This document shows positions 32,102 through 41,180 of a DNA stretch of 64,000 nt, piece after piece. The stretch comes from Candidatus Bartonella washoeensis Sb944nv (GTDB lineage: Bacteria; Pseudomonadota; Alphaproteobacteria; Rhizobiales; Rhizobiaceae). The stretch spans positions 70,186 to 134,185 of the forward strand of contig NZ_JH725022.1 in NCBI RefSeq assembly GCF_000278135.1, written 5' to 3'. Each line of letters opens with the position of its first letter. Position 1 is the first letter of the stretch. Position numbers and translations under genes: made by a program. The notes below the pieces were generated by a model. It ran no database searches, was not told the origin of the DNA, and was given only the letters and a program-made list of their open reading frames with translations.

Positions 32102-32154
32102 GATTGAAGATCATATACTGAAAAACGACAAAAGTATGATTTATCCAGCAAAAT

Positions 32155-32251
32155 AGGAGGCTGGTACGATGACCCGTACCAGAACTCGTTGGGGCTGCTT
32201 CTTTCCAGACCTGACCCAGTTGGCGAGCGGCTCGTCCATCACCAACCTCCC
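32155..32251 (-). ncRNA. ffs: Signal recognition particle RNA (4.5S-type)
   Basis: On the minus strand the conserved apical loop reads GGTCAGGTCTGGAAAGAAGC, close to the bacterial SRP consensus (GGTCAGGTCCGGAAGGAAGC). The RNA ends pair well: GGAGGTTGG at the 5' end with CCAGCCTCC at the 3' end, giving about 97 nt, the size of a small 4.5S RNA. It guides Ffh and FtsY in cotranslational membrane targeting. Its position upstream of dnaX is common in Rhizobiales. Two reading frames that cross this locus are not genes. Confidence 0.92.
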
Positions 32252-35928: not shown

Positions 35929-36516
35929 ATGAATCGTTCGACAATAACCTCTTTTGGTTGCGCTTGTCTTTTTGTGTTGCTTATTGTGGTGGGAATTTCC
36001 ACACTCAGCGATATGCTCTACGATAATTCTGCATCGGTTCAACCTTCTCATACAGTTACAGAAAATAATGTGCTTAAGAAAAAACAACAGGCATCTTCTC
36101 CTTCTTTGTCATTGAGTGATCGTCTTCAACAGGGGAAGCTTGAAAATGGACGTAAAGTTTTTCGCCAATGCGCCATATGCCATACTTCTGGACGTGATAG
36201 TTCCAATCGTGTTGGTCCAACCCTTTGGGAGATCGTTAACCGTCCTTTGGCCGCTGCACCAGGCTTTGCTTATTCACGGACGTTGCGTACCAACTCTGAT
36301 CAGAAATGGGACTTTGTGACTTTAGATCGTTATTTGCATTCGCCGCGTGAAACGTTTCCAGGAACAATAATGTCTTTTCGTGGGATCAAAAATGACCAAG
36401 ATCGTGCCGATCTTTTACTTTATTTACGTAGTTTATCTGATCATCCTGTTCCTTTGCCAATGGATAATAAAGAAGGCAAATCATCTCAGAATAAAGATGA
36501 AATATTCCAAAAGTAA
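35929..36516 (+). CDS. cycM: Membrane-anchored class I cytochrome c
   Basis: The 195-residue protein has an uncleaved N-terminal anchor (residues about 8-30) and a periplasmic cytochrome c domain. One heme site CAICH lies at residues 81-85, and the likely axial methionine is in GTIMSFRGI. This layout matches CycM/c552-type cytochromes that carry electrons to the aa3 oxidase in rhizobia. The region between the anchor and the heme domain is a Ser/Gln-rich linker. It is divergent from kdsB-pheA, as in related genomes from memory. The symbol is by analogy. Confidence 0.85.
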   Translation: MNRSTITSFGCACLFVLLIVVGISTLSDMLYDNSASVQPSHTVTENNVLKKKQQASSPSLSLSDRLQQGKLENGRKVFRQCAICHTSGRDSSNRVGPTLWEIVNRPLAAAPGFAYSRTLRTNSDQKWDFVTLDRYLHSPRETFPGTIMSFRGIKNDQDRADLLLYLRSLSDHPVPLPMDNKEGKSSQNKDEIFQK

Positions 36517-37362
36517 ATCACTTTAGAAAGAGATGTGGTTGTTTTTTAGATCTTTATTTTTGATTTTAATGTGTTTTTTAATCCACGCATCAATCTACTT
36601 TTTGTTGCCCAATTGATCCACTATGTAACATAAAAATATGCAGGTATTTATACTTACCTCGTTGGTTTATCGTTGGTAGATGGTAGTTTTTTTATTATGA
36701 AGAACATTCAATTAAAATTTTGAGATTCATGCAGTTAATTATGCTCAGAAAAGCAACTTAATTTTCTCAAAACGCATTATTTTATCAGAAGATTTTCATT
36801 TTCAAGAATAAAAATAGATTACCCAAAATTTATCTGGTAAAGAAGTGGGGAATGCGTTAAATTCGGTAGCCACTTAAAAATTGTGCATTGGTGAAAAAAG
36901 TTTCAGCTCCATTCTTTCTCTCTAATTTTGGGAGTGAAACACAATATGCCTGTGATTGATTGAATCAAAATAATCCAATCGAAGTTGGGAAATAAAAGCA
37001 TCAAACAAAATTCCATTGAGAGTTTCGCTTGAAAATAAAATTGCTCTCATCTCTATCAAAGAAGGTGAATAAATACTGTTGAATATGTCATTTGAATTTT
37101 GTTGAAGTTAGCTAACTAACTAAGTGCCATAGAAAATAAAGCCCAACAAGCACAAGCTTCCCTGATCTTTCCGAAGGCAAAAGAGAGTCTTACTATGCAT
37201 TGGGGTATTTTCTGTTTTCTAAGGAGTTCTATCCATATTTTGTAAAGATGCGCACTTTATGCCATATAGTGTATTGACAATAATTATGTTTTGATAAAGA
37301 TTCGCTTCTGTCACATGAGTGATGCATAATAAAAACATATAAGTATAAAGGGGGGGGATGTC
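36517..37362. other. Long AT-rich gap upstream of the microcin cluster
   Basis: About 850 bp with no recognisable gene. It should contain the promoter for mccA near its right end: a TTGACA hexamer lies at 37274-37279 and a CATAAT hexamer at 37325-37330. They are too far apart to pair with each other, so the real promoter elements are uncertain. Confidence 0.35.
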
Positions 37363-37386
37363 ATGGATCATATCGGTTTTAATTGA
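37363..37386 (+). CDS. mccA: Microcin C-like precursor heptapeptide MDHIGFN
   Basis: Seven codons (ATG GAT CAT ATC GGT TTT AAT) and a TGA stop. The E. coli MccA is also a heptapeptide, MRTGNAN, and its terminal Asn is the residue converted by MccB to an aspartyl phosphoramidate linked to AMP. The frame here has the same length and the same terminal Asn. It sits upstream of an MccB homologue and has a very strong ribosome site (AA plus eight G, 37348-37357) five bases before the ATG. An overlapping frame from the ATG at 37358 would give an 11-mer ending in Lys and fits less well. The peptide is expected to keep its N-formyl-Met and to be exported by MccC. Assignment rests on context and on the Asn end, not on sequence similarity. 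Confidence 0.8.
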   Translation: MDHIGFN

Positions 37387-37397
37387 TAAGTAGAGTT

Positions 37398-37436
37398 CTT
37401 TTCCCTGGAATGACTTTTCAGGGAAAAGTTTATTAT
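37398..37436 (+). terminator. Hairpin between mccA and mccB (attenuator-like)
   Basis: Perfect 10-bp arms CTTTTCCCTG (37398-37407) and CAGGGAAAAG (37419-37428) around an 11-base loop, followed by TTTATTAT. E. coli mccA is also followed by a hairpin that ends most transcripts, making much more mccA than mccB message. This one probably does the same. Confidence 0.7.
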
Positions 37437-37457
37437 AATGAATAAGTGGGGGGAGCA

Positions 37458-38522
37458 ATGGAACAGCAATATATTTTGGGAAAATATACCCGCGTTCTTG
37501 TCCGTAAAGACGATGCAATTTTCGGTGCTGGTTCAAAGCAGTTTGTTATTAACAAGAAAAAAGACTGGGAAAATTTTGTACTTCTCGCCGCACAATGGAT
37601 TGAGAAAAAGACGGTGGAAGAAGCTTATACTGCGCTATCATCCATCATGTTAAGAGAAGACTTTAACCACGCATTTGACTTTCTTTTTTCTAACCATTTC
37701 CTTGTTTTAGCGGAGACATCGGACAATATCTTCAATCATCGGTATTCCAGAAATCATCTCCATTATCAAAGTTACGGTATGGATCCAGAGTCTGTTCAAC
37801 GTACCCTTTCACACAAAGTGGTGGTTATTTTAGGATGTGGCGGAATCGGTAATCATGTATCAGCGATACTTGCATCTTCTGGTGTGGGAAAATTAATTCT
37901 TGTCGATAATGATGTGATCGAGATAACCAACCTTACCAGACAAATTCTTTTTACTGAACAAGATGTTGGACTTCCTAAGACAACCGTTCTTCGACGTGAG
38001 CTGACACGAAGAAACAATCAAAGTGAGGTTAGTGAATTACAAATGTCAATCACGACGAAAGAAGATATCAACAAATTGCCCAGAGCCGATTTGTGGATCA
38101 TTTCTGCTGATGAACCTGACCATCTGGTACCATGGATAAATCAATGGTGTGTAAAAAATCAACAAGCTTATATAAATTCCGGTTATGTCAATGACATTGC
38201 TATATTGGGACCTTTTTACATACCTGAAAAAACAGGTTGCTATGCATGCAGCTCATCCATAGGAAATCTCCCCGAAAAAAGCGATGGTTTAATCTATGAG
38301 GCTTGCGCTTCTATTAATAATAATTTTAAAGTTGCAACATTTCCTCCTGTGAATGCTCTTTCAGCTGCCATGTGTGCTAACGATGCTCTTAAATTTTTGG
38401 GTGGTTATGGTGATCTCCTTTCCACGGATCGCCGTGTGGGGATATGGAGTAGCAAACTTTTCACAGAAGAGCGTTCCTTAAAAAAGAACCCTCACTGCAA
38501 AGTTTGTGGAACAAAACAATGA
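37458..38522 (+). CDS. mccB: MccB-type peptide-adenylating enzyme (E1/ThiF fold)
   Basis: Expected to use two ATP to convert the terminal Asn of MccA to a succinimide and then to the peptidyl-AMP phosphoramidate. The ATG at 37458 follows GGGGGGAG; a GTG at 37446 is possible but less likely. The 354 residues show an N-terminal peptide-clamp domain starting YILGKYTRV, the block RYSRNHLHYQSYG (about 96-107) nearly identical to what I recall of E. coli MccB, the ATP loop VVILGCGGIGNH (122-133), LVDNDVIEITNLTRQ, ISADEPDH, and zinc cysteines 261, 264, 347 and 350. The whole length matches MccB (350 residues) rather than MoeB or ThiF (about 250). It overlaps the next gene by ATGA. Confidence 0.93.
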   Translation: MEQQYILGKYTRVLVRKDDAIFGAGSKQFVINKKKDWENFVLLAAQWIEKKTVEEAYTALSSIMLREDFNHAFDFLFSNHFLVLAETSDNIFNHRYSRNHLHYQSYGMDPESVQRTLSHKVVVILGCGGIGNHVSAILASSGVGKLILVDNDVIEITNLTRQILFTEQDVGLPKTTVLRRELTRRNNQSEVSELQMSITTKEDINKLPRADLWIISADEPDHLVPWINQWCVKNQQAYINSGYVNDIAILGPFYIPEKTGCYACSSSIGNLPEKSDGLIYEACASINNNFKVATFPPVNALSAAMCANDALKFLGGYGDLLSTDRRVGIWSSKLFTEERSLKKNPHCKVCGTKQ

Positions 38523-39754
38523 ACAGACCTCAAACGCTTGCTGTAACCCATGGATCTTACCATGCGATACGAATGCTAATCGGTGTTTATCACGCTATTT
38601 TTCTAATATCTATGGGGGTTACCCTTTCTCAATTGGCTTTGCTGCAAGTCGTCTTTTCGATAACCGTTTTGCTTCTTGATTTTCCGTGTGCTGTTTTCGC
38701 TGACAGGTATCGACGTAAATACTCAGTCACAGCTGGAGTTTTTATGACGGCAGTGTTTTATCTTCTCTGTCTTCAAGCCCCCAATATGATAATGCTTATC
38801 GTTGCACAAATTTTCTATGCAGCGGGGATTTGCTTCATTGCCAGTGCCATTGACGGATGGATTTACCATTCTCTAGGCAACAGACAAGACCGCTTTTCGC
38901 ATTATGCGCATCTTTCTCACCGAATAAACTCTTTTGGTAGCATTATCAGTGGTGTCCTAGGAATTGCAACGATCTATTATTCTGGGCAATATTTCATGGG
39001 ATATCTTATCTCAAGTCTGATGATGGGAATAATTTTCTTTATATTTCTTATTGTTCCTGAAGAAAAAATATCTGTGGGTGAAGGAACAAAAACAAAGACG
39101 ATCTTGCAAAATGCTAAGGAAACGCTCTGGATATTTCAAAACACCGTGGGAGGAACATGGTTTATTTTGCTGATGTGCCTGTTCAGCGCTGGCATCCAGG
39201 TTATTTATCATTTCTGGCAGCCTATAATACTCTCAGGTGGGAAAATTGACCACCTCAAAAGCTCGCAGATGCTGGTCCTCATGTGCTGTCATATCGGAGC
39301 CTTCTCAGCGCAATATTTTTCCAATTCACTGATGTCGAAATATCACGTATTTGATAAAAAATATAAGAACTCTATAAAGTATTTTTCATTCTTCTCTGCC
39401 CTTATGTGTATGGCTCTTTATTTTTTCGTTCAGAGTAGTCAAATTGCTGCGTCAGTTATCGCATTTTCGTTAATTCATGGATTTATTTGCACTGTACCGA
39501 TAGGAGCAAAGAGCTTGTTTTTTTCAGAGCTTAACCAAAAACAATCCCAACATATTTCTGGCATTGTCGGGGCGGCATCTTTTAGCGGAAGAATATTTTC
39601 AATAGCGGTATTAAGCGCCATCTCTTTTCTTCCTGCAAAAATTTCACCATCTTATTACCTTGTACTACCGACTTTGACTTTTTTCATGTGTGGTTTAGTC
39701 ACCATCAAGTGGATGGCGCTCTTTGGTAAATCTATTTTGAAAAAAACTATATGA
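38519..39754 (+). CDS. mccC: MccC-type major facilitator exporter
   Basis: Predicted inner-membrane exporter for the peptidyl-nucleotide, which also gives partial self-protection. The ATG at 38519 overlaps the mccB stop (ATGA), so the two are coupled; an upstream TTG frame is ignored. The 411 residues form about 12 hydrophobic segments, with the MFS motif A loop FADRYRRKYSV after segment 2. The length is close to E. coli MccC (about 400). There is no clear terminator after it. Without mccB next to it this would be only a generic MFS protein; the role comes from context. Confidence 0.85.
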   Translation: MNRPQTLAVTHGSYHAIRMLIGVYHAIFLISMGVTLSQLALLQVVFSITVLLLDFPCAVFADRYRRKYSVTAGVFMTAVFYLLCLQAPNMIMLIVAQIFYAAGICFIASAIDGWIYHSLGNRQDRFSHYAHLSHRINSFGSIISGVLGIATIYYSGQYFMGYLISSLMMGIIFFIFLIVPEEKISVGEGTKTKTILQNAKETLWIFQNTVGGTWFILLMCLFSAGIQVIYHFWQPIILSGGKIDHLKSSQMLVLMCCHIGAFSAQYFSNSLMSKYHVFDKKYKNSIKYFSFFSALMCMALYFFVQSSQIAASVIAFSLIHGFICTVPIGAKSLFFSELNQKQSQHISGIVGAASFSGRIFSIAVLSAISFLPAKISPSYYLVLPTLTFFMCGLVTIKWMALFGKSILKKTI

Positions 39755-39904: not shown

Positions 39905-40446
39905 TCTTTACTGCTGAATCTGGTTTATTTCACCGAACACAGTTTTTGAGATTTCTTTGAAAAACTGCAACTTTGCTTTTATTCAAGAGTGTAGAGAAAA
40001 GAACTTTCTCAGAAGTTGTGAGAATATTGAAAAAGAGGAGATTATTAATATATTGAAGCTTTGCATGAGAGGTGATGGTTCCTTTTCCCCGTTTAACTAC
40101 ATGAGTTTTCTCGTGAACAGAGACAGCGGATTGCTCTCTCACGCGCAATCATTATCAAACCACGTTTTATTATGCTTGATGAAACAAATATCTTCTCTTG
40201 ATATAAATGTGCAGGTGCAGAGCATTGCTCTTTTACTTCCTCTACAGCAAAGATATCATTTGGGCTCTCTGTTTTTATCAGTCATGATTTGAAGATCGTT
40301 AAAGTACTGAAACCTGGAGTGATTATTAAGCACAGTAAAGAGATGGTTGACGATGATTCTGCTGATTATATTTTTTTCGTTCCAAAAGTTTTTATACGCA
40401 GACTTTAATGGCTGCTGTATTTGCATTGGGATCTGGCCGCTTATAG
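39905..40446 (+). pseudogene. Relic of a YejF/oligopeptide-type ABC transporter ATPase (3' half)
   Basis: Pieces of one ATPase are found in order but in three frames. AESGLFHRTQFLRF lies near 39915. HEFSREQRQRIALSRA (from 40100) is the ABC signature region, with the usual SGGQ changed to SREQ. RFIMLDE is Walker B. SLDINVQVQSIALLL lies in a second frame, FISHDLKIVKVL back in the first, and YTQTLMAAVFALGS (40393 onward) in a third. At least three frameshifts and internal stops make it non-functional. The Walker A part is missing. YejF is the ATPase of YejABEF, the microcin C importer of E. coli; GsiA or DppF-type origin cannot be excluded. The tail overlaps the convergent moeB-like gene. Confidence 0.75.
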
Positions 40447-41180
40447 GCGATTACACGAAATTGTGCTGATAATCCATTGTAGAGGAGAATTTTTCCCACT
40501 AAGGGTTCACCAATATTTGTGATAAGTTTAATTGCTTCCATTGCTTGTAGTGTTCCAATAACCCCGGGTAAAGCACCTATGATTCCGGTTTCAGCACATG
40601 TCGGAATAGTACCGGGAGCTGGTGGATTGGGGAATAAATCGCGGTAGTGAGGATTATTGTCTTTATAAGGCATGAGCACTGTTAGTGAGCCGTTGAAACG
40701 TTCTACAGCACCGCTTATTAAGGGTTTTGCGCATTGGGCAGCGTGATCAGCAAGCAGGTAGCGCGTGGCAAAATTATCACTACCGTCAACAATGATGTCG
40801 TAGGCATTTAACAATTTATCCACATTACTTTTATCCAGTCTTAGATTGTGTTTTTCAACTGTAATATGGGGATTAATTTCTTTTAAAGTGGCTTTGGCAC
40901 TCTCAGTTTTTTTTTGGTTAATCGTGTTTGTTTTGTGAATCACTTGACGTTGTAAATTGGAAAGCGAAACGATGTCGTCATCAACAATTCCAAGGGTTCC
41001 AATGCCTGCTGCAGCCAAATAAGTTAGAACAGGAGCACCAAGACCACCGGCACCAATGACAAGGACACGTGCAAGTTTGAGCTTTTGTTGTCCCGCTCCA
41101 CCAATTTCAGGCAAAAGGATGTGGCGTGCATAGCGTTCAATTTCTTGGTTGCTTAATTTTATATCATCTTCTTGTATCAT
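40392..41180 (-). CDS. MoeB/ThiF-family adenylyltransferase
   Basis: E1-like enzyme that adenylates the C-terminus of a sulfur-carrier protein (MoaD or ThiS). The 262 residues contain RYARHILLPEIGGAGQQKL, the ATP loop VLVIGAGGLGAPVL, DDDIVSLSNLQRQV, DGSDNFATRYL and PTCAETGIIGALPGVIGTLQAMEAIK. The usual C-terminal zinc CxxC pair is absent: the protein ends RPDPNANTAAIKVCV, and the paired Cys before LFPNPP is Asp. This 3' end lies on the opposite strand of the decayed ABC ATPase tail. Whether it serves thiamine or molybdopterin is not decided. Confidence 0.85.
   Translation of the reverse strand: MIQEDDIKLSNQEIERYARHILLPEIGGAGQQKLKLARVLVIGAGGLGAPVLTYLAAAGIGTLGIVDDDIVSLSNLQRQVIHKTNTINQKKTESAKATLKEINPHITVEKHNLRLDKSNVDKLLNAYDIIVDGSDNFATRYLLADHAAQCAKPLISGAVERFNGSLTVLMPYKDNNPHYRDLFPNPPAPGTIPTCAETGIIGALPGVIGTLQAMEAIKLITNIGEPLVGKILLYNGLSAQFRVIAYKRPDPNANTAAIKVCV

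Follow-up and report, generated by a model that had tools for sequence, protein, structure and literature searches.

Microcin C-type (mcc) operons have been identified in Bartonella, where B. quintana and B. henselae have inactivated production, according to PMC10949449; this bears out the mention of a predicted cluster in a Bartonella species in a preliminary description of the DNA studied here. PMC9239234 suggests that immunity encoded outside the minimal mcc operon is possible, and names minimal three-gene operons relying on immunity genes elsewhere as not explicitly checked. Here, a 64,000-nucleotide stretch of contig NZ_JH725022.1 from Candidatus Bartonella washoeensis Sb944nv (hereafter the window) was analysed, and a three-gene minimal microcin C cluster, mccA-mccB-mccC, was found with all its parts at the positions proposed in the preliminary description. 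Since the mcc family is known and has already been published for this genus, the cluster is not new in itself. A B. washoensis cluster was also reportedly tested by Bantysh in mBio in 2014. The replaced importer operon, the orphan exporters and an unlinked MccE whose decarboxylase has decayed, none of which the preliminary description had noted, together constitute a new variant of minimal mcc tolerance. From sequence comparison we consider it fairly probable that this is a working cluster, whose bearer would produce a peptide-AMP and would owe its immunity to export, to the lost importer and to an acetyltransferase encoded elsewhere. The genome thereby offers a concrete, testable case in which importer loss and export are combined with an MccE that is unlinked and partly decayed.

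The mccA gene (37363-37386, + strand) reads ATG GAT CAT ATC GGT TTT AAT TGA, encodes the precursor MDHIGFN and is preceded by a G-rich ribosome-binding stretch (37350-37357, +). It is the sole seven-codon ATG...Asn-stop frame in the window on either strand, counting ATG starts only, and combines the short precursor, terminal Asn codon and strong Shine-Dalgarno sequence characteristic of microcin C. The peptide MDHIGFN was not found in the literature searched. Comparisons were made with 71 Bartonella genomes, labelled from G000 (this genome) onward. Other Bartonella precursors are MDHRGFN, MDHIFCN, MDHMGCN, MDHLECN, MDHSECN and MDHTECN, and one is MDRIGFN; some of the mccA genes compared adjoin a broken mccB (G040, G026, G022). 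Pantoea brenneri (MDHSMNN) has the MDH and final Asn that recur across the Bartonella mccA genes; positions 4-6 are variable. An additional codon after the Asn was seen in G021 (L093) and G031 (L101), both with broken mccB; this extended precursor reads MDHTECNE in the locus comparison and MDHTGCNE by eye.

A terminator-like hairpin of 13 pairs with a T-rich tail lies between mccA and mccB (37398-37428, +). The E. coli mcc operon has a terminator at the same place, where termination is induced when ribosomes bind mccA (PMC6495379). The 56-base hairpin segment folds better than 200 of 200 shuffles (z -4.30); a 98-base segment that includes mccA has an unexceptional fold (z -1.55, with 16/200 shuffles equally good). 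Four terminator-like sites, this hairpin included, were counted in 3.9 kb, and shuffles average 2.3. By sequence and fold, the hairpin is thus of the E. coli type here, with a mixed picture in relatives: in a comparison of 16 loci, several of which are broken, stem pairs change on both sides (C-G, T-G, A-T and T-A at one pair), and mispairs also occur in some rows.

The mccB gene (37458-38522, +) is predicted to encode a 354-aa peptide nucleotidyltransferase. Among solved structures its closest match is E. coli MccB (360 bits, E 1.7e-106, residues 3-353), as against 73 bits for ThiF and 63 bits for MoeB in the same structure-relative search. The two MccB proteins share 46% amino acid identity and align end to end, including the N-terminal part, GCGGIGNH, NLTRQ and both CxxC pairs, which we take to represent the clamp, ATP loop and zinc cysteines on which the preliminary description had based its match. 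Pfam finds only the ThiF domain, and the protein reaches the cut-off of none of the 20 families matched, scoring 100.5 bits against 275 for TIGR02356 (ThiF) and 72-88 against 266-449 for three MoeB models; the moeB product of the window, a ThiF-fold internal control, passes (349.7 against a MoeB cut-off of 266). A MoeB or ThiF identity was rejected on these scores, and in the profile comparison that the preliminary description had proposed the protein groups with MccB, as a ThiF-type enzyme with an N-terminal clamp that is nearer MccB than MoeB or ThiF. The mccC gene (38519-39754, +) is predicted to encode a 411-aa exporter of the major facilitator superfamily (MFS). It shares 45% identity with E. 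coli MccC, which marks it by sequence as a dedicated MccC-type exporter, and overlaps mccB by ATGA (38519-38522). The Asn-ending minigene, the hairpin and this coupling all appear as first described. In G001 (L265:8384-10719), a divergent pair encodes a 371-aa ThiF-family protein (28% identity to MccB) beside a 386-aa MFS protein.

Where yejBEF is kept, the gene order is kdsB-cycM-yejB-yejE-yejF-moeB-gshB, in which the names cycM and kdsB are ours and the families checked are cytochrome c, CTP-transferase and glutathione synthetase. In the window the order is cycM-mccABC-yejF stump-moeB. The cytochrome c gene cycM (35929-36516, +), which elsewhere adjoins yejB, forms the left flank; moeB (40392-41180, - strand), which lies directly 3' of yejF in many other Bartonella, forms the right. 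Both yejB and yejE are gone, and the importer ATPase gene yejF is reduced to a 3'-end remnant at about 40052-40390 (+) that matches ~20% of YejF, with a longest frame of 39 aa. An ORF over this stump (39957-40292) was rejected as a real gene. Bartonella YejBEF proteins are homologous to the E. coli microcin C importer (51-57% identity). The cluster or its remains occupy the place of yejBEF in 13 genomes, all of which lack yejB and yejE and retain 4-41% of yejF. A second site, used in 27 genomes, lies beside a porin gene (27/27) on the side of a gpmA-like gene, the stretch fetched covering only the porin flank in five loci. G018 and G051 belong to both sets. Among the 27, five keep YejF and 21 are without yejBEF; the remaining one, G033, carries yej pseudogenes. 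A single origin of the yej-site copies was rejected, since they do not form one clade in the mccC tree (36/40 copies; G005, G011, G016 and G033 dropped for low coverage) and parsimony gives two site changes; a single event for all of them is not claimed. Replacement of yejBEF by mcc is unreported in the literature searched, which is weak evidence of novelty, most subscription papers being outside the search.

The comparison across Bartonella proposed in the preliminary description revealed the cluster, intact or decayed, in many genomes. At E<=1e-20, MccB is matched in 31/71 and MccC in 39/71; one MccC match (G054) is only a distant MFS protein, leaving 38 genomes with an mcc trace. Full-length YejF, judged by score and length, is present in 32/71, namely in 5/38 genomes with an mcc trace versus 27/33 without (Fisher p 4e-9, kinship uncorrected). 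All five genomes with intact mccA, mccB and mccC (G000, G001, G032, G051 and G065; the predicted producers) have neither YejF nor its binding protein. A full-length Yej-type substrate-binding protein occurs in 33/71, comprising all 32 genomes with YejF plus the incomplete G058, and its gene lies at a distance from yejBEF in, for example, G023 and G024. In each of the five genomes where YejF coexists with an mcc trace, mcc is dead. The mcc genes are broken in G011, G016, G024 and G039; G023 has intact mccB and mccC, and its mccA (MDYRNYNA) has no terminal Asn and a weak-looking ribosome-binding site.

No mccE homologue lies in the window; one was identified on another contig, adjoined by the remnant of an mccC-like gene. 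It encodes 542 aa with 48-50% identity to Pantoea MccE, its first ~45 residues lying in another frame. The closest PDB relative of its acetyltransferase domain is the MccE acetyltransferase (E 7e-46). In the decarboxylase domain, Q stands at the aligned position of what is presumably the lysine that binds pyridoxal phosphate (PLP), judging from the decarboxylase family, and the EPGR and GSGFP motifs are altered; the same Q occurs in G016, G022 and G027. The dN of the decarboxylase half is 2.9-3.9 times that of the acetyltransferase half (five pairs of four genes), with dN/dS of 0.28-0.40 and 0.10-0.16, respectively, indicating relaxed but not neutral evolution of the former. These sequence features suggest that the decarboxylase domain has probably lost its activity. 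No mccD was found in the window, at the mccE locus or in the 6 kb beside mccE, the rest of the genome not having been searched. The stretches tested therefore hold neither mccD nor an intact mccE decarboxylase for E. coli-type aminopropylation, and an aminopropyl group is not expected. The preliminary description had likewise proposed a product lacking this group; its conclusion stands, while its argument that no mccE is present fails.

Immunity through the acetyltransferase domain of the distant MccE would be expected from its conservation. MccE homologues occur in 15/71 genomes. Standalone MccF (S66) and MccG (S51) immunity were both rejected, each being found in 0/71 genomes by searches that were positive in 6/14 and 10/14 named control genomes, respectively. 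This genome encodes one HIT protein. In G047 (L263:9697-10188), only an MccE acetyltransferase domain is present; yejB, yejE and yejF are open there, and there is no mcc trace.

Taken together, these features suggest the following scheme. Formyl-MDHIGFN would be made from the minigene, with transcripts ending largely at the hairpin, and MccB would add a nucleotide to the terminal Asn through an N-P bond; by analogy with the E. coli enzyme, AMP is most likely. MccC would export the product. Sensitive neighbours would take it up through YejBEF-type peptide transporters and trim it to a non-hydrolysable aspartyl-adenylate analogue, whereupon aspartyl-tRNA synthetase activity would be lost. The producer would be protected by loss of the Yej importer, whose operon has been physically replaced by the mcc cluster, by MccC export, and by the distant MccE with its conserved acetyltransferase domain and probably inactive decarboxylase domain. 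We see an even balance for and against the fuller proposal that importer replacement is itself the self-immunity, that gain of the weapon and loss of the door were one event, that the acetyltransferase, with its biosynthetic half decayed, came later as a backup, and that the orphan exporter is an immunity gene in species without the weapon.

Several observations weigh against this scheme. No Bartonella YejF reaches the NCBI curated cut-off (0/71; best 783 of 834 bits), the name resting on 54% identity to E. coli YejF and on synteny. PMC9790009 describes YejBEF-YepA of Agrobacterium as importing muropeptides and assigns the binding protein of B. henselae to YepA, not YejA. The proposed uptake of this compound through YejBEF is drawn from E. 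coli. An MccE homologue is present in two predicted producers only (G000 and G051) and in none of G001, G032 and G065, and its decarboxylase half, with below-neutral dN/dS and open in four species, may keep some role. In 6/16 loci (G000, G021, G022, G032, G033 and G065) the mccA-mccB spacer reaches its lowest energy by folding into the hairpin alone; in most of the remainder, the G-rich mccB ribosome site is involved in the fold. The mcc-bearing genomes form one clade whose basal node has a support of 55, so the association between mcc and YejF does not amount to 38 independent observations and the loss count below is soft. Within this clade, four genomes without an mcc trace also lack YejF (G019, G030, G035 and G054), and a truncated yejB frame occurs both in G011, which keeps YejF beside its mcc trace, and in G038, outside the clade.

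The clade support, the four genomes and the truncated yejB of G038 also favour the explanation that the antibiotic is made and the yejBEF loss is unrelated reductive evolution, with peptidoglycan recycling dispensable and the site a neutral landing place, as does G007, in which yejBEF is decaying and mccABC is absent. We regard this explanation as rather unlikely. Outside the mcc clade, 27/29 genomes keep YejF (10 of the 29 are absent from the tree and were counted as outside), and one exception, G058, is an 86% complete genome. On a tree of nine proteins from 61 genomes, irreversible-loss counting places nine yej losses within the 42-genome mcc clade and one outside it, over nearly equal branch lengths (2.71 versus 2.86). 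In addition, gap lengths at the deleted yej site differ between groups, and the YejF keepers beside an mcc trace have only dead mcc.

Orphan exporters raise a second alternative, that MccC serves mainly as a general efflux pump for a substrate of its own, mccAB being a dispensable passenger. Intact mccC is present in 21/71 genomes (G026, with a frameshift near the mccC start, excluded). In 15 of these mccB is broken or absent, and the reverse is true of one genome (binomial p = 0.0005, relatedness uncorrected); G009 has an intact mccB and an mccC with a stop. The 14 orphan mccC genes tested (G036 left out) are under purifying selection. Median dN/dS is 0.090 (range 0.035-0.208, 55 pairs) for the 11 second-site orphans, compared with 0.150 for the yej-site trio and 0.125 for the producers; G017 and G025, with no mccB trace at the locus, give 0.096 at dS 0.33. 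Purifying selection without mccB suggests that mccC is useful on its own, possibly in immunity to the microcin of neighbours or in other export. All 15 orphan genomes lack YejF, so imported microcin should be no threat to them; immunity by importer loss alone leaves the orphans unexplained, and a simple immunity role is disfavoured unless another uptake route exists. Given such a route, the orphans may still be immunity genes, and 4/15 of their genomes (G022, G027, G028 and G050) carry an MccE homologue as well. On balance, a general pump appears unlikely, and we retain the producer protected by importer loss, export and MccE.

The cluster could also be a relic or silent, intact by chance on the way to the decay seen in most relatives that have it, given that mccB is intact in just 7/71 genomes versus the 31 with a match. 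We find this very doubtful: every part from mccA through the hairpin to mccC is intact and in register, and comparison of 6 intact mccB genes (15 pairs) gives a median dN/dS of 0.112, a value typical of purifying selection. MccB identities to other Bartonella, where intact, are 80-92%. G036 counts as broken in mccB with a stop at codon 3 as the only fault seen. The same third-codon TAG in an otherwise open mccB was noted in G036 (L088) and Bartonella sp. DB5-6 (L004), and this inactivation is likely recent. The presence of CMP instead of AMP is highly improbable, as, although some MccB enzymes cytidylate (PMC12250964), MccA here has seven residues, a length that mostly goes with one major MccB clade (PMC6495379), and MccB aligns throughout with the adenylating E. 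coli enzyme and shows Pfam only a ThiF domain.

Upstream of mccA, a TTGACA-like motif (37274-37279, +) matches the consensus, and TTGACA or TTTACA occurs 78-90 bases 5' of mccA in 11/16 mccA loci. The G040 and G031 rows of this comparison are offset by two bases, as is the G031 row of the spacer comparison, with no effect on any count beyond that shift. The promoter scan does not list the motif at 37274 and found no excess of promoter-like sites (14 versus 13.2 in shuffles). The palindrome-like TCACATGAGTGA at 37311-37322 (+), a perfect palindrome in G036, is a possible operator; a similar element was observed upstream of mccA in several species. The 5' side of the hairpin pairs with the G-rich mccB ribosome site in the lowest-energy fold of most relatives, a pairing that could act as a switch between termination and mccB translation.

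A second mcc-like cluster was observed in six genomes (L256-L261: G026, G051, G018, G056, G050 and G020). It has an MFS gene 25-32% like MccC, partial in some, a nearby mccE 62-65% like Pantoea MccE, and, in all but G018, an mccD-like gene, fragmented everywhere but in G020. G053 and G028 also carry the portion of this cluster with mccD and mccE.

The closest relative found outside Bartonella is Pantoea brenneri (L007; MccB 69%, MccC 63%), which has an mccABCDE operon with an open mccD (59% identity to E. coli MccD). Within the 397 genomes sampled from the order, MccB was found at E<=1e-40 in the present genome only (1/397), suggesting that the cluster was likely transferred between distant groups (Bartonella, Pantoea). 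Base composition is 0.391 in both cluster and window and gives no sign of recent transfer. A phage origin was rejected, as the 20 phage records matched are all below 60% identity to MccB, and so was a plasmid origin, as all 476 matching plasmid records are also below 60%, the best being that of E. coli (46%). Elsewhere in the window, the minus strand carries a bacterial small SRP RNA gene (32153-32250).

Producers, exporter-only genomes and importer keepers form a natural series within one genus and hint at peptide-antibiotic competition among vector-borne bacteria. Compared with plasmid-borne E. coli microcin C (mccABCDE-F; L175), this cluster has MccB and MccC at 46% and 45% identity and the same B-C order, together with a seven-residue Asn-ending precursor and a terminator hairpin (for E. 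coli, PMC6495379). Unlike the E. coli system, it has no mccD, mccE or mccF, lies on a chromosomal contig in place of an importer operon, and is accompanied, on another contig, by an MccE that lacks the expected PLP lysine. The MDH...N pattern of MccA is shared with the mccABCDE operon of Pantoea brenneri, which, unlike the cluster described here, keeps open mccD and mccE genes in the operon. Other Bartonella mcc loci contain the same genes at two chromosomal sites, most being broken or reduced to mccC. With the standalone immunity enzymes of the MccE2, MccG, MccH and MccF types (PMC9239234 and PMC7157772), this genome has in common that immunity would be encoded outside the minimal operon; unlike those enzymes, it has a near full-length MccE with a probably inactive decarboxylase, combined with loss of the importer.

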